A DNA stretch of 64,000 bases from NCBI GenBank assembly GCA_013368375.1, contig JAACJP010000057.1, positions 1-64,000 of the forward strand, in the 5' to 3' direction. Origin of the DNA: Tricholomella constricta (lineage: Eukaryota; Basidiomycota; Agaricomycetes; Agaricales; Lyophyllaceae). Made by a program: the position numbers and the translations under genes. The notes below the pieces were generated by a model. The model was not told the DNA's origin. It saw nothing but the letters and a program-made list of their open reading frames with translations, and ran no database searches. Positions 7,671 to 46,648 of this stretch are shown piece after piece; position 1 is the stretch's first letter; the number at the start of each line of letters is the position of its first letter.

Positions 7671-7673
7671 CTA
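7668..7673 (+). promoter_or_regulatory. TGA-CTA stop-codon readthrough context between protease and pol, Ty3-A
   Basis: GAA-TGA-CTA. The frame continues open into RT. UGA-CUA is the established high-readthrough context in fungi and animals, including peroxisomal enzyme isoforms in Ustilago. The same GAA-TGA-CTA stands at the same place in Ty3-B (37706). Confidence 0.65.
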
Positions 7674-21488: not shown

Positions 21489-21563
21489 ATGATGGCACTT
21501 GATGTACATGTCAAGTGAAGTGAATTCATATTGTACAACATGCCGTGGGAAATGCCTCCGGTG
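21489..21563 (-). repeat. CACTA-1 right terminal inverted repeat
   Basis: The reverse complement begins CACCGGAGGCATTTCCCAC, matching the left repeat; the outer end is followed directly by the TAT duplication. Confidence 0.88.
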
Positions 21564-21566
21564 TAT

Positions 21567-26721: not shown

Positions 26722-26943
26722 TGTAAGGGCGCTTACTATCTTATCGACTAATCTGATCTAATCGTATCTTATCGACACGATTATGCTATTGTTTGGCAAC
26801 ACCTTCCGGTGTTGCCTATTTAATCCTTTACATTACATAATTAAATAGTAGACCTTGTACACCTATACGTAGCAATCGACAGACTTGTCAAGCTTACGTC
26901 TAGCGTGCACAGCAAGGTCCCCAAATTCTGTAACCCCGTTACA
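26722..26943 (+). repeat. Ty3-B 5' LTR
   Basis: TGTAAGGGCGCTTAC to CCCCGTTACA. A 9-bp-stem hairpin (GGCAACACC/GGTGTTGCC) stands just before a TATTTAA box. Preceded by TCGCG. Confidence 0.93.
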
Positions 26944-27050
26944 TTTTTTTAAGCTACCTTGCTTTCTATTGCTGCGTACCCACGACATACGCAGAACCAC
27001 ATTCCATTTAGAACAACCATCATCAAAAGAACCCACGAGACCCAGACCCG

Positions 27051-28806
27051 ATGACACCAACTCCCACATCCGGAAAGAGCCGAACTCCGGTCTTCGAGGA
27101 TGCGCTCGCAGCGCATCCTCCATCACAACTTCCACTGCAACCAGTGGAAGTCGGATCAGTCGCTGGTGGACAAAGTCCACCAGCGCAGAATACACTAGGA
27201 TTAGAATCGGAGGAACCTTGGCCGATAGCAAGCACCAATGTGCCGGGGAGCTTGGCCGACGAATTGGCCAGGTCATATCGACCTGGCCCCACGGCAGGAA
27301 GCAGATGGCCAGACAGCCGTCTGTCAAGTAGAGCATTCGGGGCGTCCACCTTGAGCATAGTCAAGATGGAGTCGGACGAAGACGACTTGTCCGACCCCGA
27401 GGCCAATGAAGAAGAAGCCAGCGATAGGGAATTGCTTGCGCTAAAAGTGAAGCAATTCTGGGACACCACCGATGTTGTTAGCGAACATCGACGAAGACGA
27501 CTAGAGGAACGAGCGGATAGGCTCGTTCTACGATCAACCGGAGCACAGTCCGTTGCAGAAATGGTCGTACAGGAGTATGCCGACCGATACTTGGAAGCGC
27601 TGTCCGTAGTAGTTACGGAATACAGGAAGAAGTACCCTAAGGGAACTTCGAATTCAGCAGTCAGCTCGATCGCTGGGACTCCTATACCTAAGAAAGCTCC
27701 GCTCAACAAAGGAAAAGGTCGTTGGGATGACCTTTTCACCCCGCAAGCAGTGGCCTCGGGATCGAACCAGCCTCTTGATGAGGCTGCTATGGCAGTATCT
27801 GCGCTGCACCAAGCACGCCAGTTAGGAGAATCTGACGAAGATTATCGTCGTCGGGCCGCGGCAGCGAAACGCGAAAGAATGACTCGCGAAGAGCACCTTG
27901 CGCAACCACAAGGTCCCCGATGGGCCCCTGTTAGTGAGTCTACATTAGACCCACCCACTGAGCGTAAGGACACGAATTCGCAACTAGCTGGCACTGAAAG
28001 CGTGCCAGCTATTCAAGTACCTCCGGAGGCTAAGGATGGCCGTGTTCCATTAGCGAAAGAGTGGAACAACCGGATCGCTTACCAGCGTCTGAGAAATGCT
28101 GATCTATCACGGAGCAAGTTTACGAATTATGACGACCAAGGAGTCGTCTTTGAAGGACATATGCCTGTGGATGAGATGGCGAGGCAATGGGCCTCGCAAA
28201 CTCAAGGTTCGGATGGTGGGTTAGTAACTGGATTGGAAGCCGTCGAAAAGAATAATTCGACGGCGATAGCTAACGGTCGTCGAGACATGCGGGTTCGAAT
28301 AAGTGAACCCGCGGAATATGCGCAGCCTCGAGCTCAGACTCGAGGCTATTCAATGCCTGCTCCGATCCGCCGGAGTCAATCAATTGCGGACGGAATACAT
28401 GCTGCCGGAGAGCAGCATAAAACTAAGATGCATGAGCGATTGCATCAATTAATGCACGAGCGTTTGTCGGTACGACTGTCGCTTCCGGACGGGATGAAAT
28501 CTCGGCGTGCGGACTCAAAGTCCGTAGGCACTTATAGTGGAAGTGCAAAGTTCGGCGACCTTGAAGAATGGCTGTCGAGCCTCGTCGTGATGCTGGCAGT
28601 GAGCCAGTTTGGAGGAGAAGAACGCGACCAAGAGCGCGTTCTGATAACATCCGAGTTTCTCGATGGTGAAGCTCGAAAGTGGTACAATCGCCACGTTATA
28701 CATGTAAACCGCGAGAAGCAGTTCTGGACGTTTGAAGACGTCGTACTTGGATTGTATGACCGGTTCGTGCTACCCTCAACCATGCAAGATGCTCGTAACG
28801 ACTTTA
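27051..28806 (+). CDS. gag: Ty3-B gag, N-terminal part (interrupted by FB-1)
   Basis: ATG 27051, 107 bp after the LTR. A long disordered N-terminal region is followed by the capsid-like domain from about residue 480: SAKFGDLEEWLSSLVVMLAV, FGGEERDQERVLITSEFLDG, WTFEDVVLGLYDRFVLPS. It matches Ty3-A gag (DERERERISYTGMYLKG, LKDVITGLYDRFIHEASLQD). The frame breaks at 28807 where FB-1 begins; taking out FB-1 and one TTA gives an uninterrupted join to 30020. The DNA contains at least twelve perfect hairpins with stems of 8-11 bp in 1.75 kb, for example 27096-27120, 27128-27151, 27161-27185 and 28324-28347. Confidence 0.88.
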
Positions 28807-30019
28807 CACTGCTGGCGGCGGTCTATGTTTCCGTGGGAAACATGGAAAGGAAAGATGTTTTTCAACTTCCAAAGAAACATGGATAAGAAACGGGTAATAT
28901 TTTTCTCAGGAAACACTTAATTAAAATATTTTGTTTATCCCAGATTTTTCTTTGGAAAAATATATCATTTTTCTTTGACTGTTTCTCCAGAACCATGACA
29001 GGTGTTTCCCAAGTGTTATGTGGGAAAAATGATGAGTTTTTCTTTCACTGTTTGTGAAGAAACATGAAAGATGTTTCCCATATGTTTCCTAGGAACCACA
29101 AAGGGTGTTCTTTCACATGTTTCTCTGGTAACACAAAGGATTTTTCTCAGATATTTCCTGAGAACCACAAAGGGTGTTTTTTCACATGTTTCTCTGGTAA
29201 CACAAAGGATTTTTCTCAGATGTTTCCCCCGGTCCACAAAAGATGTTTCCAATCAATGTTTCCGGGGATAAATGTTTAGTGTTTCCTGAGAGAAAATAAA
29301 ATTAAGAAATATATTTTATGTTTCCAGTGAGTGGCACACTCACCGCGCACTCATGGCTTGTGACCTTGATCGCAGAAAATGCCGCTTTGCGGGAGCGGAT
29401 GTCAGGCCTGGAGGTCAGCATCCAATTGGTGCTGAAGCGGGACAGGAGGCGGACAGGAGGCAGTCAACACGATGAGTGCGCAGTGAGTGTGCCACTCACT
29501 GGAAACATAAAATATATTTCTTAATTTTATTTTCTCTCAGGAAACAATAAACATTTATCCCCGGAAACATTGATTGGAAACATCTTTTGTGGACCGGGGG
29601 AAACATCTGAGAAAAATCCTTTGTGTTACCAGAGAAACATGTGAAAAAACACCCTTTGTGGTTCTCAGGAAACATCTGAGAAAAATCCTTTGTGTTACCA
29701 GAGAAACATGTGAAAGAACACCCTTTGTGGTTCCTAGGAAACATATGGGAAACATCTTTCATGTTTCTTTGCAAACAGTGAAAGAAAAACTCATCATTTT
29801 TCCCACATAACACTTGGGAAACACCTGTCATGGTTCTGAAGAAACAGTCAAAGAAAAATGATATATTTTTCCAAAGAAAAATCTGGGATAAATAAAATAT
29901 TTTAATTAAGTGTTTCCTGAGAAAAATATTACCCGTTTCTTATTCATGTTTCTTTGGAAGTTGAAAAACATCTTTCCTTTCCATGTTTCCCACGGAAACA
30001 TAGACCGCCGCCAGCAGTG
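28807..30019. mobile_element. FB-1: foldback element with 547-bp inverted arms
   Basis: 1,213 bp, flanked by TTA on both sides (28804-28806, 30020-30022). Arms of about 547 bp (28807-29353 and 29470-30019) differ at only a handful of positions and enclose about 117 bp of unique sequence. The ends are CACTGCTGGCGG...CCGCCAGCAGTG; a 3-bp duplication and CACTG ends fit a non-autonomous CACTA-type element (inference). The arms are crowded with TGTTTC/GAAACA words and hold a tandem duplication of about 66 bp. The small ORFs it contains are by-products. A transcript through it would fold into one long hairpin. Confidence 0.85.
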
Positions 30020-30752
30020 TTAATGCCGTTACTTACTCGGCGAGCAAAGGAATACAAGGTTTATATGATGACCTTGTGGACCATGCCATGAATATGGCAG
30101 CAAGAACGGACGATTGGACGTTCCTGGAGAAATTCCTCAAGACACTTCCGCGTGAGATGCGGAAGGCATTATTCGATGACGGGCTATCACCCGAAATCAA
30201 CACGGTCCAAGAGTTCCTAGCGGTGGGCTTAGCACACCAAGCCACCCAGAAGACGGCTGATTACTTTGAGCGGAACATAACCGCTCAGCGAAATCAACCG
30301 AGTCAACCGCGGAAACCAGATGGGGGGCGAGTGAACACCCCACAAAACAATTTCAACAGGACTCGACGTGTGTTTGGCGCACTTAATGAAAAACCATACG
30401 CCAAGCTAGCGTATCAGGATCAACCGGGACGTGGAGAGCAAAAGCTCCACGTCGAGAAACCAGCGATGAAGACAGGAGATCGTCCGCGTTACGATCAACC
30501 TAAAAACCACGATCATCACAACCACCCTCCGGGGGAAGTGTGCTTTAATTGTGGAAAACTAGGGCATTTTGCAAAAGATTGCAAACAGCCCAAGAAACAG
30601 CGAGCGTTCCTAAGGGCCGCACGTACAGCGGCACCTGACGCGGCAAGTGAAGCGGACGATGAAGACACGTCTCCCGAGGACCCGGACGGACGAGACAATG
30701 GACGCCCTGATACAGAGGCGGACAATGAAGACGAAGGCGATGAGTTCGTAGA
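30020..30752 (+). CDS. gag: Ty3-B gag, C-terminal part with zinc knuckle
   Basis: Resumes gag after FB-1: VDHAMNMAARTDDWTFLEKF, LPREMRKALFDDGLSPEI, then a basic/polar linker and a canonical knuckle CFNCGKLGHFAKDC (C-x2-C-x4-H-x4-C) at about 30541-30582. An acidic stretch (EADDEDTSPEDPDGRDNGRP) follows up to the Ty3-C insertion at 30753. The split is in frame: removal of Ty3-C and one GTAGA copy joins it to 37103 without a stop. Unlike Ty3-A there is no stop between knuckle and protease, so gag and protease are one protein. Confidence 0.85.
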
Positions 30753-31226
30753 TGTTAGGGCGACCTTTAGAGCAGAGCTCAGTCGTACTGGCAAAGGGGA
30801 ATCCAAAGTTATATTGATGTACTGTAACGAGGTAAATAAGGCTTACCTGGCAAAGGGGAATCCAAAGAGAATAGTGTAAAGGATTCCCAGATGCCAGGGG
30901 GCCGGCTATATACAAGTGTGATACATGAGGGCAGGCTCTCCATAGTGTACTGTACATGTGATAATAATGACATGTGATAACCATGACAGGTGATAATGAT
31001 GAGCGGGTTCCGGATGCTGTCTGATGGTAACCGTCGTCGGGATGTCAGGTGATCGGGAATATGAACAGGGAAACAAGGGGAATGACAGGAAGTGAGTAAG
31101 GTAAATATGTACACCGACGCTTGGGTCAGAGCGTCGGGGTCGGGATCGCGATCGGTCAGGAGCAAGCGCACGTGTCGGGGAACAGTTGGTGAGCGTCGGA
31201 GGTCGTGAACGGGTGTTCCCCTAACA
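30753..31226 (-). repeat. Ty3-C 3' LTR (left copy)
   Basis: 474 bp; on the minus strand it runs TGTTAGGGGAACACC to GGTCGCCCTAACA. Same as the right copy as far as I can read. Confidence 0.93.
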
Positions 31227-34200
31227 TCACCCCCCCTTTTGAATCGCAACGACTCGGTGCGGGGTAGCGGTGGCGAAGATGGCCGGGGATAATGTGAACA
31301 TGCCACGAATGTGGCGGGCAGCGTCGGGGTTGTCGCGGTGGAACTTGCGTACCAGATCGGGGGCGGTGACATTTTCGCGAGGTTCCCATGAAGCTTCTTC
31401 GTAACCATAGCCTTTCCACAGGACCTTGTACTGTAGTTTTTTGCGGAAGGTTCGGCTATCGAGGATCTTTTCAACTTCGTAATGGGGTTCGTCGTCGATT
31501 ATGTCGGGGGGAGGAGGAGGATTGGACCGACGACCTTCGATCGGATCAGCGACGGCGGGGATGAGTTTCACGACGTGGAAGACTGGGTGGATGCGCTTCA
31601 TGGACTGAGGCAGCAGGAGGCGGTATGCGAGCGGGCCGACTCGCCTTTGCACGACAAAAGGGCCAAGGTAGCGATGCGACAATTTCTTAGATGGTCGGGT
31701 CGTAGAAATGTCGGTCGCGTCCAAGTACACCTTGTCGCCAGGCTGGTAGTCGGGCGTTGGGGCGTGTCGCTGGTTGTAGTACCGCTCCATGTCGTCTTTG
31801 GCCTTTGAGAGCGCTGCCTTGGCTTCTTCCTGTGCTTCCTTCATGCGCTCCACAAACTCGTCGGCCGACTCGTTCTTGGAAGCGCCCCGACGTGGCTCAA
31901 AGCCCATGCGTGGATGCCGACCAGTGTCGAGCAGGAAGGGGGTCTGCTGCGTCGCCGAATGTACATGGTTGTTGTAACTGAATTCGGCGTCGGGCAAGAG
32001 GTCCTCCCAGTCGTTCTGACGCTCATTGCAGAAGACCCGCAAAAACTGTTCCAGCTCCTGGTTGACGCGTTCGGTCTGTCCGTCGGTCTGCGGGTGGTAC
32101 GCCGTCGAAGCCGACAGCTTGATACCCAGGAGTCGGTACAGTTCGCGCGTGAATTCGGCGACGAACTGTGGACCTCGATCGGAGACAAAGGCATCTGGGA
32201 GACCGTGGAGCTTCCAGACGTGGCGCCGGTAGAGGTTCGCAGCCCCCAAAGCCGAACAAGTCGTGTGCGACGCAATGAAGTGCGCGCGTTTTCCGACCGA
32301 ATCCACGACGTTCATGATCGCGTCGTGGCCATTGGACTCGGGGAGTTCGGTGATGAAGTCGACCGACACGACATTCCATCGACCTTCGGGAATGGGGAGC
32401 GGCTGCAGCTGTCCGACAGGGAGTTGGCGGCGGGGTTTCGTGCGCAAGCACATGTCGCAGGTGCTGGTGTAGGAACCGATGAAGCGCGACATCTGGGGCC
32501 ACCAGTAGTTGCGCGACACCAGCTCTAACGTCTTCCAGCGACCTGGGTGACCGGCGACCTTGGAGTCGTGGTGGTGCTCCACGATGCGTCGGCGGAGGTC
32601 AGGAACGTTCGGGACATAGATCCGTCCACGGAACGTGAGCAGACCGCCTTCCTCTCCCCACTCGCCAAAGCGAAGGGAGCGACCGGCGATCTTAGATGCC
32701 CTGACCAGTTGCGCCGCTTTCGCGACCGCATCCTCCTGTGCGCCATCGCGGTTGCCCTTGCGAATTGCCTTCAGCACGTCATCCTCTTCTCCGACCAATA
32801 CAAGACCTTCCGTCGCACGAACCGCGAAGAACTCGGGTTTGAGCAGTACGATGTCGGCGTTGTCAGCACTTCCGTCGCCATGGTCGGAGCGGCGCGATAA
32901 CGCGTCGGGCTTGCCCATGCTACGGCCAGGACGGTGGTGGAGGGCGAAGTCGAAGTTAGCGAGGTAGAGCGACCATCGGGCTTGACGCCGATTGAGTTTC
33001 TTCGCGGTGAGGAAGTACTCAAGGTTCTTGTGGTCGGTCCAGATCTCCACCTTGTGCTTTGCGCCTTCTACGAAGTGTCGCCACTCCTCCAGAGACCGGA
33101 TGATCGCTAGCATCTCCTTGTCATGGATCTCGTAGTTCCGCTCGACGGCGTTCAAGCTCTTTGAGTAGAACGCGACGGGGTGCCATTTACCGTCGGACGG
33201 CGACTCTTGCGACAGGACCGCGCCCGTTGCGAAGTCAGATGAATCGGCTTCGATGCGGTACGGTCGGTCGTCGTCAGGGAACATGAGAACGGGCCCCGAT
33301 GTGATCGCCGACTTCAGAAGGCCAAAGGCCGACTGCTCCGACTCTCCCCATCGCCAGGCGACGTCCTTGCCCGTCAGATCGAACAGGGGTCGGGCGTGAT
33401 GCGAGAAGTCCTGGATGAACCGTCGGTAGAAGTTAGTGAAGCCTAGGAATGCTTGCACTTCCTTCTTGTTCTTCGGCGCTGGCCATTCCAACACTCCAGC
33501 GACCTTAACAGGGTCCATCTCCGCTTGCCCTTGCGAAATGATCAGCCCCAGATACTCGATCTTGGTCTGTTCGAATTCGCATTTCTCGGGCTTTAAGAAC
33601 AACTGATGTTCGCGGAGTCGGTCCAGTACTAATCGCGCGACCCGACGGTGTTCCTCTAGAGTCTTGGTATAAATCAAGATGTCGTCGAGGTACACGCAAA
33701 CAACACCTTCGGCGATCAGATCGCGGAAAATATCATTCATCATGGTCTGAAATGTGGCGGGGCTGTTCGTGAGGCCGAAGAACATGACGAGCGGCTCGAA
33801 GAGACCGCGGTTCGTCCGAAACGCTGCCTTCCACTCGTCGCCTTCCTTGATCCGAACATTGTTGTACCCCCATCGGACGTCCAGCTTGGTGAAGTACCGC
33901 GCGCCGCGAAGGTTATTCACCAGTTCGCTAATGAGGGGCAGCGGGTATCGGTTCTTCACCGTGAGCGCATTGAGCGTCCGATAGTCCTGTACCAGGCGGA
34001 GCGACCCGTCCTTCTTCTTGATGAAGAAGACCGGTGATGCCATGGGCGACTTGGACGGTCGGATACGACCCGTCTCGAGATTCTCTTTGAGGAACGCGTC
34101 GAGTTCAACCTGTTCCGCCGGTGACAGCGGGTAGACCTTCGTGCCGGTTGGTGACGCGCCCGGCTCCAGTTCGATCGCATGGTCCCATTGCTTGCGCTCT

Positions 34201-35261
34201 GGGAGCTCATCGAACGCAACTTTGGAGAAGACATCTTCAAAGTCGTGGAGGTGGGTGGGTACGGCGTCGCGGAACGTTTTGGGCACGGAGTTAGCAGCGT
34301 GCGCTTCCGCAAGTCGCTGCGATGTCGTTTGGCTGGCCCGAATATGTTCGGCGGTCGGGGTCGGATGGATTGCGGTCGCGAATATGCGATCGCCATTCAG
34401 GAAGGTCTCCGTCAGGAAGTCGTCGGACTCTGGGTCGGGTTCCTCCAGGATCGGAGTGTAGGGGAGGAACTCGTCGTCATCAGAGTCGTCCTCCACGTAC
34501 GGATTGGTCGGGGTCCGCAGGTCAGGCTCAATCGTCGGGATGCCATCGGCTCGACAGGCACGGATTGCTGCGCGCACTTTGGTACGTGCGCGCCGATCGG
34601 CTTTGACCTCATCCTTGCAGGTGTCGCACTGCATCGGGCAGCGACTCATCTTCACCTCTTTGGTCTCCCAGTCGATCTCAGGGTTGTGGTTTTTAAGCCA
34701 GTTGAACCCGAGGATCATGTCGTGCTTGCCTAACTGGGTGACCCCGAAGACGGCTCGTTCGGTATGACCATTGTATCGCAAGACAGCTTCTACGATGCAA
34801 GAGACCGAACCGCCTTCGTTGAGGGTGCCGTCTACGTTGTAAACTGGGGATGGCCGACTAAGCACCTTGGTCGTGAGTTTGTGTTTCTCGACGAAAGCGA
34901 TATTGAGAAAGCTGCCGGTTGCTCCGCTGTCCACTAGCGCAGTGACGGTGTGCGACTCCTGGGTGTCGGTGGTCTCCAGTTCAACGTTGAGCCACAGGGA
35001 TCTGGGGCAGGGGGAGGCAGCGGCGATGAAGCGACTAGGGAGTCGCTTTTCCCAGCGGGGTAGGCCACGACGCGACGGGGCGATCGGCTTTGCGACTGCG
35101 ATCGGTGTCGTCGGGTCGGAGGGGCTTTGTACGTCTTTGTCGGTCGGTTCACTCGTAGGAATAGCAGCAATAATAGGTGTATTGGCATATTCTACGGACA
35201 GTGGAGCGAACCGATTACGACTAGACAACGGGGGCGTACGTTCCACCCGTTGTGCGATTAA
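31227..35261 (-). CDS. pol: Ty3-C pol: protease, RT, RNase H, integrase, chromodomain
   Basis: About 1,339 aa from the GTG at 35246, but pol has no ATG near its start; the frame is open back into the end of gag, so it is most likely made by -1 frameshifting at 35267-35261. Domains in order: protease (ALVDSGATGSFLNIAFVEKH, active-site DSG), RT (KKDGSLRLVQDYRTLN, catalytic VCVYLDDILIY), RNase H (IEADSSDFATGAVLS, NYEIHDKEMLAII, WTDHKNLEYF), integrase zinc domain (HHDSKVAGHPG...CDMCLRTKP), core (VSVDFITELPES, AFVSDRGPQF, HPQTDGQTERVNQ) and a C-terminal chromodomain (EVEKILDSRTFRKKLQYKVL, EASWEPRENV). Every catalytic residue I can check is present. The stop TGA 31229-31227 directly abuts the LTR and the polypurine tract is inside the last codons. 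Confidence 0.92.
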   Translation of the reverse strand, partial: LIAQRVERTPPLSSRNRFAPLSVEYANTPIIAAIPTSEPTDKDVQSPSDPTTPIAVAKPIAPSRRGLPRWEKRLPSRFIAAASPCPRSLWLNVELETTDTQESHTVTALVDSGATGSFLNIAFVEKHKLTTKVLSRPSPVYNVDGTLNEGGSVSCIVEAVLRYNGHTERAVFGVTQLGKHDMILGFNWLKNHNPEIDWETKEVKMSRCPMQCDTCKDEVKADRRARTKVRAAIRACRADGIPTIEPDLRTPTNPYVEDDSDDDEFLPYTPILEEPDPESDDFLTETFLNGDRIFATAIHPTPTAEHIRASQTTSQRLAEAHAANSVPKTFRDAVPTHLHDFEDVFSKVAFDELPERKQWDHAIELEPGASPTGTKVYPLSPAEQVELDAFLKENLETGRIRPSKSPMASPVFFIKKKDGSLRLVQDYRTLNALTVKNRYPLPLISELVNNLRGARYFTKLDVRWGYNNVRIKEGDEWKAAFRTNRGLFEPLVMFFGLTNSPATFQTMMNDIFRDLIAEGVVCVYLDDILIYTKTLEEHRRVARLVLDRLREHQLFLKPEKCEFEQTKIEYLGLIISQGQAEMDPVKVAGVLEWPAPKNKKEVQAFLGFTNFYRRFIQDFSHHARPLFDLTGKDVAWRWGESEQSAFGLLKSAITSGPVLMFPDDDRPYRIEADSSDFATGAVLSQESPSDGKWHPVAFYSKSLNAVERNYEIHDKEMLAIIRSLEEWRHFVEGAKHKVEIWTDHKNLEYFLTAKKLNRRQARWSLYLANFDFALHHRPGRSMGKPDALSRRSDHGDGSADNADIVLLKPEFFAVRATEGLVLVGEEDDVLKAIRKGNRDGAQEDAVAKAAQLVRASKIAGRSLRFGEWGEEGGLLTFRGRIYVPNVPDLRRRIVEHHHDSKVAGHPGRWKTLELVSRNYWWPQMSRFIGSYTSTCDMCLRTKPRRQLPVGQLQPLPIPEGRWNVVSVDFITELPESNGHDAIMNVVDSVGKRAHFIASHTTCSALGAANLYRRHVWKLHGLPDAFVSDRGPQFVAEFTRELYRLLGIKLSASTAYHPQTDGQTERVNQELEQFLRVFCNERQNDWEDLLPDAEFSYNNHVHSATQQTPFLLDTGRHPRMGFEPRRGASKNESADEFVERMKEAQEEAKAALSKAKDDMERYYNQRHAPTPDYQPGDKVYLDATDISTTRPSKKLSHRYLGPFVVQRRVGPLAYRLLLPQSMKRIHPVFHVVKLIPAVADPIEGRRSNPPPPPDIIDDEPHYEVEKILDSRTFRKKLQYKVLWKGYGYEEASWEPRENVTAPDLVRKFHRDNPDAARHIRGMFTLSPAIFATATPHRVVAIQKGG

Positions 35262-36502: not shown

Positions 36503-36616
36503 CTCGAAACGGGACTGGGCGGGCGATCAGAGCGAGCGCGCGTTGGACGGTCGCGTGTAGCAGACGCGTGTTTCGGCGCGGAAGCTGGTCGGTCGGCTTC
36601 GTCGGGTTTCTAAGAG

Positions 36617-36628
36617 ACACTATTCTGC
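36617..36628 (-). promoter_or_regulatory. Self-priming primer-binding site, Ty3-C
   Basis: Two bases after the 5' LTR, AGAATAGTGT on the minus strand is the exact complement of ACACTATTCT in the LTR (36753-36744). That LTR site lies 35 bp downstream of TATATA (36788-36783), where transcription should start. This is the Tf1/sushi type of self-priming; no tRNA-type site is seen. Confidence 0.65.
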
Positions 36629-37102
36629 TGTTAGGGCGACCTTTAGAGCAGAGCTCAGTCGTACTGGCAAAGGGGAATCCAAAGTTATATTGATGTACTG
36701 TAACGAGGTAAATAAGGCTTACCTGGCAAAGGGGAATCCAAAGAGAATAGTGTAAAGGATTCCCAGATGCCAGGGGGCCGGCTATATACAAGTGTGATAC
36801 ATGAGGGCAGGCTCTCCATAGTGTACTGTACATGTGATAATAATGACATGTGATAACCATGACAGGTGATAATGATGAGCGGGTTCCGGATGCTGTCTGA
36901 TGGTAACCGTCGTCGGGATGTCAGGTGATCGGGAATATGAACAGGGAAACAAGGGGAATGACAGGAAGTGAGTAAGGTAAATATGTACACCGACGCTTGG
37001 GTCAGAGCGTCGGGGTCGGGATCGCGATCGGTCAGGAGCAAGCGCACGTGTCGGGGAACAGTTGGTGAGCGTCGGAGGTCGTGAACGGGTGTTCCCCTAA
37101 CA
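36629..37102 (-). repeat. Ty3-C 5' LTR (right copy)
   Basis: 474 bp, with TATATA at 36788-36783 on the minus strand. Followed on the plus strand by GTAGA, the target duplication. Confidence 0.93.
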
Positions 37103-37708
37103 GTAGACATGGAGGTCTACGAAAATGAATACTATGCTCGGGACGATGAGACCGAGCGTATGTTTGCAATGACAGAAGTAATTGCGTCAGAAGAACGCAA
37201 TGATAAACCACCAGTTCGCAAAGTTAAAGTGCGGACGGGGAGGGACAAAATTGCTCGTCCCGTAGTTCCGATAAAGGACAAGGAGTGCCTTGTCACCTAC
37301 ATTAACGTAGGTGGACATGAGGCTTGGACCCTCTGGGATTCCGGGAGTACGACTACCGGACTTACGCCGTCATTCGCTCAAGTGGCCGATATTCGAGTGT
37401 TTCCGTTGGAGGATCCATTAATCCTCCAGCTCGGAACTAAAGGAAGTCGGGCCACAGTAAATTTTGGCACGACGGTGGAAGCCGTTCTTCCAGGGTTTAA
37501 AGGCAAGGTTTACATGGACCTTGCTAACTTTGATCGATACGACGTGATTATAGGCACGCCGTTTATGCGCGCAAACAACGTCGTGCTGGACTTTAACCGT
37601 GACGAAGTTGTCGTCAATGGAGTCGCTACACCAGCGACTAAAGTAAAAATGGAGGATACCGATGGCCGAGTTAGACGCCATCGGTCATTGGAGAAACGAA
37701 GAGAATGA
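37103..37708 (+). CDS. Ty3-B protease region (end of gag-pro)
   Basis: Continues the gag frame after Ty3-C. Retropepsin-like domain: CLVTYINVGGHEAWTLWDSG with intact DSG, LILQLGTKGSRATVNFGTTV, and RYDVIIGTPFMRANNVVLDF, where the IIG hydrophobic motif closes the domain. The domain fold and surrounding text match Ty3-A's protease closely. A linker of about 35 residues leads to TGA 37706-37708. As in Ty3-A the stop is read GAA-TGA-CTA and the same frame is open beyond it. Confidence 0.88.
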   Translation, partial: VDMEVYENEYYARDDETERMFAMTEVIASEERNDKPPVRKVKVRTGRDKIARPVVPIKDKECLVTYINVGGHEAWTLWDSGSTTTGLTPSFAQVADIRVFPLEDPLILQLGTKGSRATVNFGTTVEAVLPGFKGKVYMDLANFDRYDVIIGTPFMRANNVVLDFNRDEVVVNGVATPATKVKMEDTDGRVRRHRSLEKRRE

Positions 37709-37711
37709 CTA
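37706..37711 (+). promoter_or_regulatory. TGA-CTA readthrough context between protease and pol, Ty3-B
   Basis: GAA-TGA-CTA, identical to Ty3-A at the same position although the flanking codons differ. The frame is open for 1,299 codons afterwards. This fits programmed readthrough for making gag-pro-pol. Confidence 0.72.
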
Positions 37712-40700
37712 AAAGTCACAGTAGAAGATGATGATGATCCTGATAACGAGGGTAGGCCGATAAACAGCCTACCAAAGGATCACCCAGCACTTCTATTATC
37801 CGATGAAGAGTTTCAAGAAACTCTTAAGGAGGGGGATAAGCCACCTCCGAAGAAGAGAAAACCCCAACGACAACAGCAGAAGGCACAACACGAGCCTTCG
37901 AACGAACGAGCACGGACTCACGAGCCATGCGAAGAACGCCAGCGCGATAATGAAGCGCGTAAGACGAGCGGGGCCGAGAAGGATACGGAATCAGAGCCGT
38001 ATACGAATGCGAGTAATCGATCATTATGGGATAGACCAAACCCACATCCACAATATGAGTGGATGTTCGACCCACGGATGCCGCAAGAATGGAACGCAGT
38101 AATAGCGTCAATGCGGGCTCACGAAGGAAGAAATGTAGGCACGCGAGGACAAGCGTACCGAAATCCACGGCCTGAGGAAGTATCGGAGCCAACGGAAATG
38201 AATTTCCCGGTGAATATACAACGGGCTAAACGGCCGTTGTATCGGTTACCAGTGAAGGATGAGAGTGACTTTGCTCTCGTAAAACTACGAGCTAGGTTTG
38301 ATGTTAAACCCAGCAATAAAGACACAGCGCACATTCGCGCTGCAAGAACGGTGAACGGAAAAGGTAAGGCACCCAATGGAGGCCTTACCGCGGAAGATTA
38401 TCCACGACTTCGACAGCAATGGCATGACGAATTCGAAGATATGGTGGGTGGTACGAAACAACAGCTACCACCCTGGCGGGAAGTCAATCACGAGATTACT
38501 CTCGTCGACGATGAGAAACAGTACCAGTACCACGCGCCGAGGTGCCCAATGTCCCTTCGCGAGGAATTCTACGCGAAGGTCAATCGGTATACAGATTCTA
38601 AATGGTGGGAGCCTCGTTCGGTAAAGCAAGCAGCGGCGCTGCTATGCATCCCGAAAAAAGACGGCTCCCTGAGAACACCCTTGGACGCACGGCAGCGTAA
38701 CGACAATACGATCAAGGACGTTACGCCCTTGCCAGACCAAGAAATCATTCGCGAGGATGTTGCCAGAGGGAAGATACGATCAAAGATTGACTTAACGGAT
38801 GCGTACGAACAAGTACGCATCCTCGAGAAGGACGTACACAAGACCGCCTTTGCAACGATAGCGGGAACGTACGTTAGCAACATAATGCAGATCGGGGACT
38901 GTAACGCCCCCGCAACATTTCAACGATTAATGACGTCAATTTTTCGGGACGTCATTGGGAAATTTATGCATGTATACTTGGACGACATATTCATATTTTC
39001 GAACTCCATCGAAGAACATGAAGATCATCTTCGAGTAGTGTTCGAACGATTACGCGAACAGTCCCTTTATTTGAAGTGGAAGAAATGCGAACTATATTCG
39101 GATCGCGTCGATTGCCTTGGTCATATAATCGACGACCAAGGAATTCACCCTGACGCCGATAAATTGGCACGGATTCGCGATTGGAGGGTTCCACGGAATT
39201 ACAACGATATACAGCGATTCGTTGGACTGGTTAATTATCTGGGTCAATTCCTCCCAGATATATCCGCGTACACTGGGCCACTAATGGCGATGACCGAGAA
39301 TGGGTCGCCATTCTATTGGAGACCAATTCATCAACGATGCTTTGAAATGATAAAGCATATATGTTGCACGACGCCAATTATTCGGCCTATTCAACCGAAG
39401 ACAGACGAACCAATTTGGATTATATGTGACGCCTCCAAGTCAGGCGTCGGTGCGATGTATGGACAAGGACCTACATGGATCCAAGCCCAGCCGGCTGGAT
39501 TCATGTCCAAAAAATTCACTAATGCACAGCAGAATTATGCTGTGCATGAACTCGAGACCTTAGCTATTCTCGAAGCGTTACTTAAGTGGGAGGATAAACT
39601 TGTGGGCTATAAAATCCACATCATTACCGACCATAAAGCCCTCGAATTCTTTAAGACCCAGGTGAATTTATCACCTAGGCAGCGTCGATGGATGGAATAC
39701 ATGTCGCGATTTAACTTCGACATAACCTATGTGAAAGGCGAACTGAACAAAGTCGCCGACTGTCTATCGCGATACTTCGAGAGCGATAACCATCAAGATC
39801 GTTACGACGTCCACGACTTCGTAGCTGCTGATGCTAGAATCGATCCTACTGGTGAAGATCTACCAGTACCACGATACCATGAAATCGTGGAAAAAGTAGT
39901 TGAGATTCGAGCGATGAAAGACGTAGAAATACGTCGAAGCAAGCGTCTTCAAGAACGCCAGGAGGATCGAGATGTCGAGGCTCAGATAATGGAAGCTGCG
40001 GCACCAAGTACCGCCTCCGGAACATCGTCACACCCTCAGAAAAGCATGAGTCCAACCGAACGGGAACGTACGGTCGGAGATATTGTTCTCGGGAGGGACA
40101 CAGTTTCTCCTCCCCCAGACAAAACGGATGAAAAGATCCGTCACGACGTTATCCTTGGATACCCAAAGGATAAACTATTTTCAGTTATTCTCGCTAACCC
40201 CATGGACTTTCGTACGTTCACCACGAAAGACAATCTCATTTGGACCACGAACGCTATAAATGATAGCGTTCTATGTATACCGCGAGAACCCGAGCTCATC
40301 ACCACAATTATTGAGCAAGCCCATAAAACTATGGGCCATTTCGGTGCCGAACGGACTACTGAATATATTCGACGATGGTATTGGTGGCCATCACTAGCCA
40401 CGACCGTGCGTACGTTTTGTAAAACGTGCGAGTACTGCCAGCAGATCAAGACGTCGAATCAAAAACCGTCAGGGAAACTACACTCCCTGCCAGTACCAAC
40501 TAAGCCTTGGGATTCTATCGGAATGGACTTTATCGGTCCATTTCCAGAATCAAAGGGATATAATTACCTATGGGTAGTAATTTGTCGTATGACGAGTATG
40601 GTGCATATGATACCCATACATACGACGATGACAGCCGCCCAATTATCATGGGTATACTTACGGGAGATCGTCAGGCTCCATGGCCTGCCAAGCTCGATCG

Positions 40701-41608
40701 TAAGCGATCGAGACTCTAAGTTTACGTCACGCTGGTGGCGCGAACTACATAAGTTATTAGGAGCTAAGCTCCTAATGTCGACATCGTTCCATCCTCAGAC
40801 GGATAGACAAACGGAGCGAGCCAATCGTAGTATTGGCCAGATATTTCGTGCCGTTGTGAGGCATGACCAAAAGGATTGGGTAGATTGTATACACATGGCT
40901 GAGTTCGCGATAAATGCGAGCGTATCGGCTACTACCAAGTTCGCTCCATTTGAGCTGAATAATGGATACATGCCGTCCATGTTGAAAGAGATACGCTCAG
41001 ACAGCGTAATACCGAAGGGAATTCGAGAGTATGCGGAACGCGCATTGCAGAATATAGCGGAGGCGCATGACGCTATAATCGAAGCGCGCGTATTTCAAAC
41101 GCGCGAGGCAAACAGGCGCCGATCCGCTGGTCCAGAAATAAAGGGGGGAGACTTGGTGTATTTATCCACCAAGAACTTGAACCTCCCCAAGGGACGCGCC
41201 CGTAAATTGTGCCCGAAATTCGTCGGGCCCTACAAAGTGCTGAAGGCCATGCCAGACACGTCGAACTATACGTTGGAATTACCTACGGCACTCATGGAGC
41301 GCCGGATACATCCAACATTTCATATATCGATGTTGCGCCCATACTACGCAACGAATGATACAATGTTCCCTAATAGAACTCATCCAGAGCCCTACGATTT
41401 TGGGGCGCCGGATAATCACGAATGGTTTGTAGAAGACATTTTGGGCCATAGATGGACCCAAAATAATACTGTGGAATATCAGGTTAGGTGGAGCCTGGGA
41501 GACACCACCTGGGAACCGCACACCAATTGTAACAAGTTAGCGGCACTGGATCGCTACTTGGAACTACAAGGGGTGAAGAGCGCGTCGAGATTACCGCGAC
41601 GAACCTAG
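37709..41608 (+). CDS. pol: Ty3-B pol: RT, RNase H, integrase, chromodomain
   Basis: 1,299 codons in the gag-pro frame. The first ATG with good length is 38063, but the open frame starts right after the TGA, as expected for readthrough. Linker rich in Lys/Glu, then RT (LCIPKKDGSLRTPLDARQR, KIRSKIDLTDAYEQV, HVYLDDIFIFSN), RNase H (IWIICDASKSGVGAMYGQG, ELETLAILEALLKWE, IITDHKALEFF), integrase HHCC (HKTMGH...CKTCEYC), DDE core (SIGMDFIGPFPES, SSIVSDRDSKF, HPQTDRQTERANR), GPY-like (LCPKFVGPYKVL) and chromodomain (EWFVEDILGHRWTQNNTVEY, GDTTWEP). All catalytic residues are present. The sequence continues to show hairpins with 7-9-bp stems, for example 38554-38579. Confidence 0.92.
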   Translation, partial: LKVTVEDDDDPDNEGRPINSLPKDHPALLLSDEEFQETLKEGDKPPPKKRKPQRQQQKAQHEPSNERARTHEPCEERQRDNEARKTSGAEKDTESEPYTNASNRSLWDRPNPHPQYEWMFDPRMPQEWNAVIASMRAHEGRNVGTRGQAYRNPRPEEVSEPTEMNFPVNIQRAKRPLYRLPVKDESDFALVKLRARFDVKPSNKDTAHIRAARTVNGKGKAPNGGLTAEDYPRLRQQWHDEFEDMVGGTKQQLPPWREVNHEITLVDDEKQYQYHAPRCPMSLREEFYAKVNRYTDSKWWEPRSVKQAAALLCIPKKDGSLRTPLDARQRNDNTIKDVTPLPDQEIIREDVARGKIRSKIDLTDAYEQVRILEKDVHKTAFATIAGTYVSNIMQIGDCNAPATFQRLMTSIFRDVIGKFMHVYLDDIFIFSNSIEEHEDHLRVVFERLREQSLYLKWKKCELYSDRVDCLGHIIDDQGIHPDADKLARIRDWRVPRNYNDIQRFVGLVNYLGQFLPDISAYTGPLMAMTENGSPFYWRPIHQRCFEMIKHICCTTPIIRPIQPKTDEPIWIICDASKSGVGAMYGQGPTWIQAQPAGFMSKKFTNAQQNYAVHELETLAILEALLKWEDKLVGYKIHIITDHKALEFFKTQVNLSPRQRRWMEYMSRFNFDITYVKGELNKVADCLSRYFESDNHQDRYDVHDFVAADARIDPTGEDLPVPRYHEIVEKVVEIRAMKDVEIRRSKRLQERQEDRDVEAQIMEAAAPSTASGTSSHPQKSMSPTERERTVGDIVLGRDTVSPPPDKTDEKIRHDVILGYPKDKLFSVILANPMDFRTFTTKDNLIWTTNAINDSVLCIPREPELITTIIEQAHKTMGHFGAERTTEYIRRWYWWPSLATTVRTFCKTCEYCQQIKTSNQKPSGKLHSLPVPTKPWDSIGMDFIGPFPESKGYNYLWVVICRMTSMVHMIPIHTTMTAAQLSWVYLREIVRLHGLPSSIVSDRDSKFTSRWWRELHKLLGAKLLMSTSFHPQTDRQTERANRSIGQIFRAVVRHDQKDWVDCIHMAEFAINASVSATTKFAPFELNNGYMPSMLKEIRSDSVIPKGIREYAERALQNIAEAHDAIIEARVFQTREANRRRSAGPEIKGGDLVYLSTKNLNLPKGRARKLCPKFVGPYKVLKAMPDTSNYTLELPTALMERRIHPTFHISMLRPYYATNDTMFPNRTHPEPYDFGAPDNHEWFVEDILGHRWTQNNTVEYQVRWSLGDTTWEPHTNCNKLAALDRYLELQGVKSASRLPRRT

Positions 41609-41735
41609 AATGTGGCGCGGTCATGTGACCACGGCGATCAGGAAAATTACATAACCATCAAAAGTTATGACAGAAGGTTAAATATGTTTGGCGCTAGACG
41701 CGCAACCGATTTTCAACCCTCTCAACAACCACAAC

Positions 41736-44708
41736 ATGTACCCAACCGCAGGAGCAAATTCAAGCAACGACGCGACTCGGGGCGGCGACAGCCGCACCGA
41801 CTATCAAAATATGGCCTCGGGATCGAGTCCAAAAGGGGAGGAGGTGCAGGGACGCGCGGAAAGCGCGCCCCCGCCCCCAACCTATATGGGCGTGCAGCCC
41901 CAAACATTTCAATACCCATCGGTTGGCCACATGAGCCAACTGCCCCACCAGGGGCAACCGCCCCATCAGGGGCAACAACTATACCCTATGGTTGGCCACA
42001 TGAGCCAACCGCCCCAGCAGGGGCAACAACCACAGACGGGTGGGTTCTACCCACCGTCGATGGCATATCAACATATGCCATCAATGCAGAGCTTCATGGG
42101 GTACCCACCACCGACGTGGTACCCCCAAATGCCCGCCCCAATCGTACCGCAAAATACGCGGTACAACGAGTCAGAGAAAATGGAGGTGGACGACCAAAGT
42201 CGTCAAAAAACACCTACTCCACCGGCGCAAGTGGCGCGCAGCGAACCGGCGCGGCAATATGCCGCGCCATATGCAGACGAACAAAGAGGTTCGTTTGCGT
42301 CGAGTTCGCGGAGGCCGGCAGACGATCGCGCAGCGTCGTCTGCGTCAAGTTCGAGGAGACCATTCGCAGATGATGGTCTCCTTTCGTCTATCTTGGACCG
42401 ATTGGAAGACGCGGGTATTCACCGCGAGTTTTGTGATTTCTTGGACGATGGGATGGCGCAGCTGGTTGTAACCCAGCTGCTTGATGCGTACGATGGAGTT
42501 CGCGCGGACTTGAGACGCGTGAAGGCGAGAGAGTCGGCCATGGCTGAGCAACTCAGCCTGGCAAAAAAGCGACCGGCAGTGGCGTCGCCAGATCGCGGGG
42601 AGGGACCATCGTCCCGACCCATGAAAAGACAGCAGACCGAGGTGCGGCGAGAAGAACGCACCTTATATGAACCCAGGCGTCAGGAACGACGCCCGGAACA
42701 AGAGTATCGGCGGTTCGACCGCCATCCCGACCAAGAAGTGTGGCGTGATGAGCGCCCACTTGATTATGGTCCTCAACGAGAGGAGCGTCGCGAGGACCGA
42801 GGGACGCGCGAAGTGCGTCCCTTACCGGCTCGAGAAGTCGAGCGAAGGGCGTCGACATCGTCGACATCCGCGGTGCAGGCACCGCAACAGCAACAGATAG
42901 CGGGAGCATTACTCCCACTACCGACACCGGGAGAAAGCCGGGTACGGAACCCGGAGAGAGGTTCCCAAAAGAAGGAACCTGTTGGCAAGTATACCTTGCC
43001 GGCACCATCGCCTGCACCACCCACTACGATGGTGCAGCCCCCATCGCCTCCGCCAAAGGGCAAAGGCAAACAAAAGGCGTCTGACCCGTACGCCGAATTT
43101 ATGGACGAGTCGGACTACGGCGAGTCCTCCGACGACGAGAAACCCGTCAGCAAGAAGAAGGCTGCCGGGCAAAAGCAGCATCGCGAGAATATGGCTCGCA
43201 AAGCTGAGAAGGAGGCGCCGGGACGGATCCCTGAAGAGCTTGGGGTGGTCTTTATCAACGGCCGCCACGAGCGGGACAACCGCTTCTGGGATATGGTGTC
43301 GCGGACGGTATATGTGTCGTCCGCCCAGAATCGTGCCTTTGCGCTAGGCACAGCAGCTCGCGTCTCAGAGAGCGAGCTAGGGACGGGACAAAACTCCCGT
43401 CCCTCAGATGGACGGCTGTATGCCGTCGCACCACGTGGGTTCCCAATGAACCCCCATGAAGTTGATCAGCTCTATGAGCTGATCAATAACCGACGCCATG
43501 GGGTGAGGGATGAAGAGCGGGCCGAGGCCTTTATGCTCTTCAGAGAATTCCGTCGGATCACCCTATCGGTCGCGCCTCACTTGCGCGACCGAGCCATGGC
43601 TCGTGCAGCCATGGACGAATTCCGCAGCGTCTCACGACCGTTCAGTGAACGGTCACCCATCTGGAATGCCCCGGTCATTAGACGGCCGGGTAAAGCATTC
43701 GAATATCGGCATGACAAGCCGACACGAGGAGCTGGTCTCCCCCAACCCGGCCCAGCTCATGCATTGGATGTCGAACATTGGTGTCGACATATGATTCACC
43801 ATGGGCGTATTGGTTCTAAGAACCAATATGGAGGTATCGTAATGGACTACCGGTTCCGCGTTCATCGTCGCGGGACCTGGGGCTACTTACTGGCGAACGT
43901 ATTGTCGCCAGTAACTCATAGTATGCGGGCATGGTTTATGCGAATTTTCGCAACCATCACCGCACGGCCATACTTCTATGCAGAAGCGGTGGCGGCCCAT
44001 AACGAGGCCAACCCTGATCGGCCGTTCACGCCGATTACCGGACCCGAGGTTATTATCCCTCCGATCCAACCTACCGCTCCCGAAGGGCGGTTGACGGAAC
44101 AAGGTGTCCTACAACACCTTATTAACAGTGGTATTCCAATTAGTTGGATAAACCACAGCTATACTTATGGTCTACACTATTTAGACCATAACTACTCTAC
44201 TGCAGGTCCTCATAAGGACCTGTTCCACAATGTTGACGACGATCGCGTTCGTCGACTCGATCAATTGGGCGTGCCACCCGCCATTCCGGAATGGGACGGG
44301 TGGTACCATCCCACCACCGACGACATCACGCGCATTCAAACGTTAATGCGCTTGGAGTTTCAGAACGAGGGGCTGGATTGTTTATCCAGCGTGGAATGGA
44401 TGTTTGTGGGTGAAGACCCACATTTCCGAGAACTCCGTGTTCGGAGAGGGGAGTTTCCCCCTCCGGACCTGCACACTCCCGCTCCATCGGGATCGACGTC
44501 TACCAACGTCGAAATGGCGGACCCGGCGGCACTCACACCTGCCCCCGCGACACCCTCCACAGTCGTGGCAGCTCCAATAGGAGCTACCGAAACCCAAGTG
44601 GACCCCGTGTCGGCCCTCACAGGGCCTCTATCACTGGCAGTGATTACCACTAGCCAGGGTCCGGTGGAATCCAACCCCACCGACCCCGACACAGTGATGG
44701 AGTCATAG
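41736..44708 (+). CDS. Ty3-B ORF3, large extra protein
   Basis: Open from about 41688; the first in-frame ATG is 41736, giving about 990 aa to TAG 44706. N-terminus: Pro/Gln/Tyr-rich repeats (two near-identical VGHMSQ-P-QGQ blocks at about 41930 and 41990). Then a helical region (SSILDRLEDAGIHREFCDFL, DAYDGVRADLRRVKARESAM), basic linkers with KKRP, and RREERTLYEPRRQERRPEQE, extremely Arg/Glu-rich. The C-terminal third is a folded domain (IPEELGVVFINGRHERDNRF, GGIVMDYRFRVHRRGTWGYL, GVLQHLINSGIPISWINHSY). That domain aligns with the end of Ty3-A ORF3. No signal peptide or transmembrane helix, no known domain. 127 bp separate it from the pol stop, so a spliced or internal start is needed. Confidence 0.75.
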   Translation: MYPTAGANSSNDATRGGDSRTDYQNMASGSSPKGEEVQGRAESAPPPPTYMGVQPQTFQYPSVGHMSQLPHQGQPPHQGQQLYPMVGHMSQPPQQGQQPQTGGFYPPSMAYQHMPSMQSFMGYPPPTWYPQMPAPIVPQNTRYNESEKMEVDDQSRQKTPTPPAQVARSEPARQYAAPYADEQRGSFASSSRRPADDRAASSASSSRRPFADDGLLSSILDRLEDAGIHREFCDFLDDGMAQLVVTQLLDAYDGVRADLRRVKARESAMAEQLSLAKKRPAVASPDRGEGPSSRPMKRQQTEVRREERTLYEPRRQERRPEQEYRRFDRHPDQEVWRDERPLDYGPQREERREDRGTREVRPLPAREVERRASTSSTSAVQAPQQQQIAGALLPLPTPGESRVRNPERGSQKKEPVGKYTLPAPSPAPPTTMVQPPSPPPKGKGKQKASDPYAEFMDESDYGESSDDEKPVSKKKAAGQKQHRENMARKAEKEAPGRIPEELGVVFINGRHERDNRFWDMVSRTVYVSSAQNRAFALGTAARVSESELGTGQNSRPSDGRLYAVAPRGFPMNPHEVDQLYELINNRRHGVRDEERAEAFMLFREFRRITLSVAPHLRDRAMARAAMDEFRSVSRPFSERSPIWNAPVIRRPGKAFEYRHDKPTRGAGLPQPGPAHALDVEHWCRHMIHHGRIGSKNQYGGIVMDYRFRVHRRGTWGYLLANVLSPVTHSMRAWFMRIFATITARPYFYAEAVAAHNEANPDRPFTPITGPEVIIPPIQPTAPEGRLTEQGVLQHLINSGIPISWINHSYTYGLHYLDHNYSTAGPHKDLFHNVDDDRVRRLDQLGVPPAIPEWDGWYHPTTDDITRIQTLMRLEFQNEGLDCLSSVEWMFVGEDPHFRELRVRRGEFPPPDLHTPAPSGSTSTNVEMADPAALTPAPATPSTVVAAPIGATETQVDPVSALTGPLSLAVITTSQGPVESNPTDPDTVMES

Positions 44709-45083
44709 GTCGGGGAGACAACTTAATCCCCCCGTCAACGAACCGACCTCGACACGCAGGAGGTATCGTCGGGACGACCGCCATTGTCAGGTGTAGACCA
44801 CCTTACTCCCGAGGAGCAAACCGCAGGTCGCGTACTCAAATATACGCAACACCGGATGTCCTCAATCCCAGGCCACCTCGAGCGGCACTTGGAGGCCGTG
44901 TAGTGGAACTATTGTCTCCACTATGTATTCGGTTATGAATACGTACCAGTAATACGTATTTCTGTGCAGGCGATATTGGGTGTAGGTCGCCGGGACCTAC
45001 ACCCTCCCTCTTGCCTTAATTTATTATTACTTATTGCATTACTCCCTGGTGAAGATCGCTACTAGCGATCTTAAAGGGGGGTA
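44709..45083 (+). other. Ty3-B 3' UTR with stem-loops and polypurine tract
   Basis: 375 bp with several perfect hairpins: AATACGTA/TACGTATT (about 44938-44960), GGTGTAGGTC/GACCTACACC (44979-45003), AAGATCGCT/AGCGATCTT (about 45053-45072). Then AAAGGGGGG, the likely polypurine tract, directly before the LTR. Confidence 0.7.
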
Positions 45084-45305
45084 TGTAAGGGCGCTTACTA
45101 TCTTATCGACTAATCTGATCTAATCGTATCTTATCGACACGATTATGCTATTGTTTGGCAACACCTTCCGGTGTTGCCTATTTAATCCTTTACATTACAT
45201 AATTAAATAGTAGACCTTGTACACCTATACGTAGCAATCGACAGACTTGTCAAGCTTACGTCTAGCGTGCACAGCAAGGTCCCCAAATTCTGTAACCCCG
45301 TTACA
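45084..45305 (+). repeat. Ty3-B 3' LTR
   Basis: 222 bp, reads identical to 26722-26943; followed by TCGCG. Confidence 0.93.
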
Positions 45306-46595: not shown

Positions 46596-46632
46596 AGCAG
46601 CAGCAGCAGTACGGGGTTAACGCAGCGGTAGC

Positions 46633-46648
46633 GCGGGGCCCAATAACC
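46633..46648 (-). promoter_or_regulatory. Copia-1 primer-binding site, half-tRNA type
   Basis: On the minus strand GGTTATTGGGCCCCGC. It resembles the Copia-2 site (GGTTATGGGCCC) with one extra T and would pair with the anticodon arm of initiator tRNA-Met. The LTR of Copia-1 lies at higher coordinates. Confidence 0.5.

Follow-up and report, generated by a model that had tools for sequence, protein, structure and literature searches.

Short Local Hairpins under Purifying Selection Fill a Ty3/Gypsy Retrotransposon Lineage in Tricholomella constricta

Introduction

One Ty3/Gypsy lineage in the genome of Tricholomella constricta is densely filled with short hairpins whose stems are protected in evolution, and its genomic RNA has probably been selected to fold along its full length into these local structures. 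The lineage under selection comprises Ty3-A, an 85% sister family, Ty3-B with its subfamilies and, more weakly, a third family. Genome-wide folding is known in RNA viruses and RNA phages. Our starting point was a window of 64,000 nucleotides (contig JAACJP010000057.1, positions 1 to 64,000), the whole stretch of DNA analysed. The original prediction, made from its letters, was that Ty3-B coding sequence is saturated with perfect hairpins, kept either by selection for RNA structure or by template switching of reverse transcriptase. That evolution protects the hairpins is a sign that the element depends on its folded shape. Folded and unfolded families share one cell, with dozens of near-identical copies per family, so the purpose of the folding is testable.

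Results

Anatomy of the elements. Ty3-B is a single insertion with identical 223-bp LTRs and CGCG on both outer flanks. It lies in three pieces (26722-28806, about 30020-30752 and about 37103-45306; Table 1). The span 27051-44708 had been taken as Ty3-B throughout, which does not hold, as a palindromic insert and the nested element Ty3-C lie within it. The palindrome inside gag is about 1.24 kb long (28795-30032); it has arms that are 93% identical and contains 69-bp tandem repeats. Another tandem repeat, of 13 bp in ten copies with 96% matches, occupies 47018-47147. The domains of Ty3-B pol are RVT_1 (196-356), RT_RNaseH (448-550) and rve (814-911), with reverse transcriptase and RNase H before integrase; a chromodomain match is weak (PF00385, E=0.00095, 19.5 bits, below the cut-off of 25.1). 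By this domain order, its paired LTRs and its target-site duplication, Ty3-B is a Ty3/Gypsy LTR retrotransposon.

Table 1. Positions of the elements, their parts and their insertions in the window (hairpin counts by the wider finder unless perfect stems are named)
Feature	Position	Strand	Remarks
Ty3-A gag and pol ORFs	4698..11576	+	hairpin-rich; small internal loop often about 4 bp from the apical loop
Element splitting Ty3-A before ORF3	12067-21563		about 9.5 kb; 74-bp terminal inverted repeats
Ty3-A ORF3, split from pol by the nested terminal-inverted-repeat element	21531..23435	+	17 hairpins vs 5.8 in codon shuffles
Ty3-B 5' LTR	26722..26944	+	223 bp, identical to 3' LTR; 3 hairpins; by self-comparison
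Ty3-B gag, first part, broken by the palindromic insert	27051..28806	+	21 hairpins, 12 of them perfect with at least 8 bp
Three consecutive perfect hairpins (example)	27096..27185	+	stems of 11, 10 and 11 bp
Palindromic insert in Ty3-B gag	about 28807-30019		
Ty3-B gag, C-terminal part	30020..30752	+	CCHC zinc knuckle (by eye)
Ty3-C nested in Ty3-B	30753-37102		LTRs 30753-31226 and 36629-37102; GTAGA on both sides
Ty3-B protease region (by eye) up to the pol ORF	37103..38062	+	11 hairpins vs 1.55 in shuffles
Ty3-B pol ORF	38063..41608	+	36 hairpins vs 7.6 in codon shuffles
Ty3-B ORF3	41688..44708	+	45 hairpins vs 8.3 in codon shuffles
Ty3-B 3' untranslated part	44709..45083	+	4 hairpins
Ty3-B 3' LTR	45084..45306	+	by self-comparison

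The product of Ty3-B ORF3 (about 1000 amino acids) has no Pfam match, and Ty3-A ORF3 gives no BLASTP match to it at E 0.001. At least three relatives of ORF3, two of them in Lyophyllum, occur among 7985 scored candidates, and the best 120 of 1336 pol relatives include Phanerochaete, Trametes, Phlebia, Agrocybe and Mycena. Both sets of relatives indicate a mushroom-forming basidiomycete. A scan found no relatives among viral contigs. For Ty3-B gag, 39 further copies were retrieved. Gag and ORF3 of the window copy are closest to one subfamily (best copies 99-100%), its pol (99%) is closest to copies with ORF3 only 83-84% identical, and the copies sharing its gag have pol at 97%. This mosaic pattern of nearest copies suggests that Ty3-B may be a product of recombination between co-packaged RNAs.

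Hairpin density in Ty3-B. Hairpins were counted by two procedures. The simple count took maximal perfect stems that measure 8 bp or more and enclose a loop of 2-12 nt. The wider finder took a perfect stem of at least 7 bp, or two segments that add up to at least 8 across a small internal loop; its counts depend on the chosen thresholds and on a greedy non-overlapping choice, whereas the stem-of-8 count is independent of both. All 16 hairpins named in the original prediction were recovered at their positions, three of them longer by 1 bp at each end. The recount of gag (27051-28806) likewise returned the twelve stems claimed, or 6.8 per kb, against a mean of 0.55 and a maximum of 3 in 200 codon shuffles. 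Pol contains 14 such stems (4.0 per kb; shuffle means 0.49 dinucleotide, 0.70 codon) and ORF3 contains 17 (5.6 per kb; 0.47 and 0.82); with 200 shuffles of each kind, neither region ever gave more than 4. The density in gag, pol and ORF3 is therefore above both dinucleotide and codon shuffles rather than within their range. A predicted density of 7 per kb fits gag and overstates pol and ORF3, and the predicted chance level of 0.15 per kb was about right, the dinucleotide or synonymous-codon shuffles of Ty3-B giving 0.1-0.3 per kb.

By the wider finder, the Ty3-B ORFs contain 10-15 hairpins per kb, and the C-terminal part of gag (30033-30752) contains 8 against 0.97 in shuffles. The interval of 30-80 bp first proposed is corrected by this finder to a mean of 81 nt and a median of 65, centre to centre, and the spacing histogram shows no obvious preferred distance. 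The excess is restricted to loops of up to about 16 nt and is therefore local. Hairpins also occur in the noncoding parts, where counts against 100 mononucleotide shuffles are 3 versus a mean of 0.39 in the LTR, 1 versus 0.08 in the leader and 4 versus 0.59 (maximum 4) in the 3' untranslated part; each only equals the highest shuffle and is weak singly. Past the right end of Ty3-B, counts by the wider finder are 0-2 per 300 nt. They are less uniformly low on the left flank, where four 300-nt bins from 25500 contain 0, 3, 2 and 1 hairpins.

These left-flank hairpins are what might be cited if the excess were put down to base composition, codon usage or a mutation bias of the host. That explanation is already refuted, and we give it practically no weight: the excess survives codon and dinucleotide shuffles, perfect stems of at least 8 bp reach only 0.26-0.42 per kb in 1-3800, 12067-21563 and 46600-64000, and host frames are normal in both hairpins and folding. 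Two RNA-polymerase loci served as host controls, together with the right part of the window, a hairpin-poor region of putative host sequence. Three long open frames from the two loci (3.1 kb) contain one perfect stem of at least 8 bp and, by the wider finder, 0.8-3.3 hairpins per kb.

Other families and elements. The hairpin excess, which the original prediction had placed in Ty3-B and overlooked elsewhere, is common to Ty3-A, the 85% sister family and, weakly, the third family. In Ty3-A, perfect stems that reach 8 bp or more number 12 between 4698 and 12066 and 9 between 21564 and 23796, and stems broken by small internal loops are in excess as well. Wider-finder densities are 9-13 per kb in Ty3-A and 10-12 in the sister family; the third family has 5.6 per kb (18 hairpins versus 6.7 in codon shuffles). 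Beyond the analysed ORFs, Ty3-A has 5 hairpins versus 0.91 and 6 versus 0.55 in two parts, and its 5' region is not clearly enriched (4 versus 1.26, maximum 5; 100 mononucleotide shuffles). Of the 21 single internal mismatches in Ty3-A, 16 are purine-purine and two pyrimidine-pyrimidine on the sense strand; they often lie about 4 bp from the loop. We considered the purine-purine mismatch as a protein-binding shape and set the idea aside; it was noticed post hoc, and the sister family has 3 of 12 in place of 16 of 21.

The claim that Ty3-C and the copia elements do not look like Ty3-B is borne out for perfect stems of at least 8 bp, but the copia element has a mild excess by the wider finder. 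Ty3-C has 3 such stems (0.75 per kb), within the shuffled range (means 0.7-0.9), and shows no excess by the wider finder (3.0 per kb; 12 hairpins versus 10.7 in codon shuffles). The copia-like element at 50213-55078 has one stem (0.21 per kb), also within the shuffled range, but 19 hairpins versus 9.3 in codon shuffles (3.9 per kb) by the wider finder. Stem counts in 24889-26631 (0) and in the ORF at 12720-14993 (1) fall within the shuffled range, and the latter has a mild wider-finder excess (5.3 per kb; 12 versus 6.7).

Purifying selection on stems. Stems were defined in one sequence only and homologous positions were read in a second. The comparisons cover one genome and one lineage, with one copy per sister family, and several share sequences. 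When the window gag of Ty3-B is compared with copy L041, third positions differ at 4 of 120 stem sites, 7 of 45 loop sites and 100 of 417 sites outside (p=1.7e-8). The reverse direction, with stems taken from L041, gives 7/126 in stems versus 94/410 outside. For Ty3-A and the sister family (pol and ORF3), the corresponding counts are 101/376 in stems and 576/1375 outside, and 114/376 and 579/1395 in reverse. Codon-stratified z values for these B gag and Ty3-A/sister stems range from -4.6 to -5.6. The ORF3 subfamilies differ at 0.213 of stem versus 0.294 of outside third positions in one direction and at 0.181 versus 0.307 in the other (codon-stratified z -2.7 and -4.0). Stems are also slower than the flanking 45 nt on each side in all six directions, with z from -2.8 to -6.0.

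Low divergence could reflect a low mutation rate in stems, and polymorphism among copies bears on this point. Within two gag subfamilies (24 and 6 copies), 364 stem sites carry 32 singletons and 1257 sites outside carry 104. The fixed differences that separate the subfamilies are divided 11 in stems and 106 outside (Fisher p=0.004 versus singletons). At third positions only, the stem:outside ratios are 12:48 for singletons and 4:78 for fixed differences (p=0.007). In the full set of 40 gag copies, stems have if anything the higher rate of singletons (74:162). Because singletons are not lower in stems and fixed differences are, selection is separated from mutational coldness, and the stems are under purifying selection.

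Distant pairs behave differently. With third-position divergence of 0.57-0.63, neither B pol versus the third family nor Ty3-A gag versus sister gag shows stems slower than outside. Among their pairs with both partners at third positions, there is no clear shortage of single changes (observed/expected 15/14.0, 7/5.2, 9/12.2 and 12/12.7). We read this as turnover of stem positions between distant families, a result that is negative for site-specific function. Distant stems evolve like their surroundings while the families keep the excess (the third more weakly), so selection seems to act on a general property and not on particular sites. The 10 of 46 mapped Ty3-A pol hairpins that coincide with a Ty3-B hairpin, versus about 4.3 expected (7 versus 2.8 and 3 versus 1.5), are suggestive only of shared positions.

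Compensatory changes and G-U pairs. Base pairs were followed in six directions over 309 hairpins. Both directions over the same pairs were pooled, and the intervals given here are therefore too narrow. Over all sets, single changes occur at 0.51-0.55 of expectation, alike for changes to G-U, A-C and other mismatches, and double changes restoring a Watson-Crick pair number 43 versus 34.4 expected. Results are much alike when each comparison is taken in one direction, with singles at 0.46-0.63 and restoring doubles at 1.16 of expectation. The proposed check for compensatory changes in related copies succeeds in part. In ORF3, restoring doubles number 20 versus 10.1 expected (1.99, 1.22-2.92, both directions pooled) and one-sided changes fall to 0.47-0.71 of expectation, but restoring doubles are not above expectation in the A family (20 versus 21.9) or B gag (3 versus 2.4).

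Pairs with both partners at third positions show the shortage of single changes directly. From Ty3-A to the sister family, 6 of 51 pairs carry a single change (about 25 expected) and 5 a restoring double; from the sister family to Ty3-A, the numbers are 10 of 47 (about 23) and 5. B gag has 1 of 23 (about 8) and 0 of 18 (about 6), with no restoring double in either direction. Expected singles for these two comparisons are arithmetic from the outside rates. ORF3 has 7 of 39 (16.2 expected) and 15 of 53 (22.6), with 5 and 3 restoring doubles.

G-U pairs are not favoured over A-C mismatches across all sets (ratio 1.05, 0.83-1.34, both directions pooled); the ratio is 1.50 (0.96-2.39) in ORF3 and 0.93 in the A family. 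The same pipeline was calibrated on the phage pairs Qbeta/BR12, MS2/fr and Qbeta/SP. Here the G-U/A-C ratio is 1.36 (0.95-1.97), and restoring doubles occur 2.1 times as often as expected. In five of six directions the phage stems evolve no more slowly than the sequence around them (local z -1.4 to 0.8), the sixth being SP to Qbeta (-2.6). A weak G-U preference is therefore normal for this test, and strong stem conservation is peculiar to the fungal elements.

Folding strength and strand. Folding energies of 300-nt pieces were compared with 10 dinucleotide shuffles each. The sense-strand excess in Ty3-B is 24.2% for gag, 22.6% for pol and 28.4% for ORF3, with 29.6% for the second ORF3 subfamily. 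It is 20.0%, 21.5% and 20.7% for gag, pol and ORF3 of Ty3-A, 23.3% for pol and 25.2% for gag of the sister family, and 23.9% for pol of the third family. Controls are far lower: Ty3-C 6.6%, the ORF at 12720 2.8%, host loci 3.0 and 3.2%, and window positions 56-64 kb -2.8%. MS2 and Qbeta, used as yardsticks with the same method, give 29.7% and 31.1%. The copia element at 50213-55078 has few perfect hairpins, yet its excess is 14.3% in sense versus 6.6% in antisense, so sense-strand structure may extend more widely than the Ty3-A/B lineage.

The sense strand exceeds the antisense strand by about 5 points in pol and ORF3 of Ty3-B and in the second ORF3 subfamily (standard errors 2.2-2.7), by 8.4 in the third family, by 7.7 in the copia element and by 3.9 in Ty3-A gag (standard error 3.8). 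The difference is about zero in B gag, Ty3-A pol and ORF3, the sister family, Ty3-C and host loci. The phages differ in this respect, with +6.2 for MS2 and -3.1 for Qbeta. As Qbeta, a real RNA genome, is strand-symmetric too, symmetry does not exclude RNA.

Discussion

Origin and function of the hairpins. Of the two explanations first offered, selection for structure is favoured by the conservation of stems at third positions, an undiminished mutation input and restoring doubles that are frequent relative to singles. The other would have reverse transcriptase, or a DNA polymerase, perfect imperfect palindromes by template switching, leaving the hairpins as a functionless by-product. Template switching is able to create and maintain RNA hairpins, according to the part of PMC8794818 drawn on here. 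Stems of perfect Watson-Crick pairs, loops no longer than about 16 nt and the lack of G-U preference would suit it, as would a stem at 22663-22683 whose five changes all lie in one arm. Such one-arm clusters (at least three changes in one arm, none in the other; six directions pooled) occur in only 1 of 137 perfect stems, however, and are rarer than in controls of the same geometry (4.7-6.8%), so a purely mutational origin is not supported. Template switching is not supported as the maintaining process by the restoring doubles either. About 62 single changes are missing against 18 restoring doubles, short of the half expected from arm correction; this figure is arithmetic on pairs with both partners at third positions, and some restoring doubles are expected by chance. 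In addition, stems are avoided by fixed differences and not by singletons, and Ty3-C and copia in the same genome are without an excess of perfect stems. We consider this origin quite improbable, although template switching may have created some stems earlier.

The molecule under selection is most likely the genomic RNA. The element would gain an RNA that is compact and hard to reach, fits into particles and withstands nucleases and the RNA interference proteins of the host; we rate compaction for packaging about as likely as protection from nucleases or RNA interference. Piwi-domain and RNA-dependent RNA polymerase matches occur in the host genome. Translation pacing, which had also been proposed, is unlikely to act alone, given the hairpins in the LTR, the leader and the 3' untranslated part, although these regions are short and their counts weak, each only equalling the highest shuffle. 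The main rival is a strand-symmetric or DNA-level role, in which selection would act on hairpins in minus-strand cDNA, on cruciforms or on both RNA strands to prevent their annealing. It holds this place because Ty3-A and B gag are without a strand or G-U preference: G-U, A-C and other mismatches are lost equally, and sense and antisense fold alike in Ty3-A pol and ORF3, the sister family and B gag. The Piwi and polymerase matches also count in its favour. Yet the sense strand is the better folded one in B pol, B ORF3 and the third family, the single mismatches of Ty3-A are mostly purine-purine on the sense strand (those of the sister family are not), and the RNA genome of Qbeta is itself strand-symmetric. 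On balance, we regard this role as possible but unlikely.

Slightly less probable again are dispersed packaging signals, many hairpins with a common shape or loop bound by Gag. Signals of this type have been proposed for RNA phages and picornaviruses, as outlined in part of a review (PMC6281560). The zinc knuckle seen by eye in B gag and the recurrent Ty3-A shape (about 4 bp, a purine-purine mismatch, then 5-6 bp) are consistent with such signals, but that shape is not the commonest single mismatch in the sister family, and hairpin positions turn over. Loop trimers, the only loop feature compared, are A/T-rich (about twofold) and G/C-poor, with nothing sharper. Selection for full-length folding of the genomic RNA remains our preferred reading. 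We hold far more tentatively that the lineage combines folding of RNA-phage grade in an LTR retrotransposon with conserved hairpins working on both strands, which would escape annealing, Dicer and small-RNA targeting.

Comparison with known systems. Searches of open-access listings returned no earlier report of such folding in LTR retrotransposons. The excess in Ty3-A/B resembles GORS in being genome-wide, coding parts included. The GORS threshold is a folding energy difference of 3% (PMC3950689, in part), and the measured pieces of B, A and the sister family lie at 20-30%. The six structured viruses shown in that source have 6.3-16%, obtained with another folding program. Ty3-A/B differ from them in their higher values, in their short perfect stems and in being LTR retrotransposons; GORS concerns RNA virus genomes and is linked to persistence, a link that we do not carry over to a retrotransposon. 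Yeast Ty3, also Ty3/Gypsy, has stable, highly structured regions making up to 30% of its RNA, but is described in the part of PMC11381356 used here as an A-rich mosaic of folded and dynamic parts, with no mention there of saturation by perfect hairpins; the two are compared by description only.

Nematomorph mitochondrial genes likewise contain perfect inverted repeats in coding sequence that come and go between species, but those repeats reach 284 bp and their arms may be identical by conversion (PMC6649704, in part). The arms in Ty3-A/B measure at most about 12 bp and fit selection rather than conversion. In maize transposable elements, local secondary structure is common and includes miRNA-like structures, as reported in part of PMC10760457; there structure is tied to small RNA mapping and methylation, whereas in Ty3-A/B the evidence is selection on stems. 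MS2 and Qbeta, measured in the same way, show a comparable folding excess, fold strongly on both strands and have restoring doubles in excess. Their densities of perfect stems that reach 8 bp or more are lower, at 0.31 and 1.49 per kb versus 4.0-6.8 in Ty3-B and 2.1 in Ty3-A. Since their stems are no slower than the surroundings in five of six directions, the strong stem conservation of Ty3-A/B is not simply phage-like. Ty3-A/B present an LTR retrotransposon lineage whose folding comes close to that of phages, in a genome that also contains elements lacking it.
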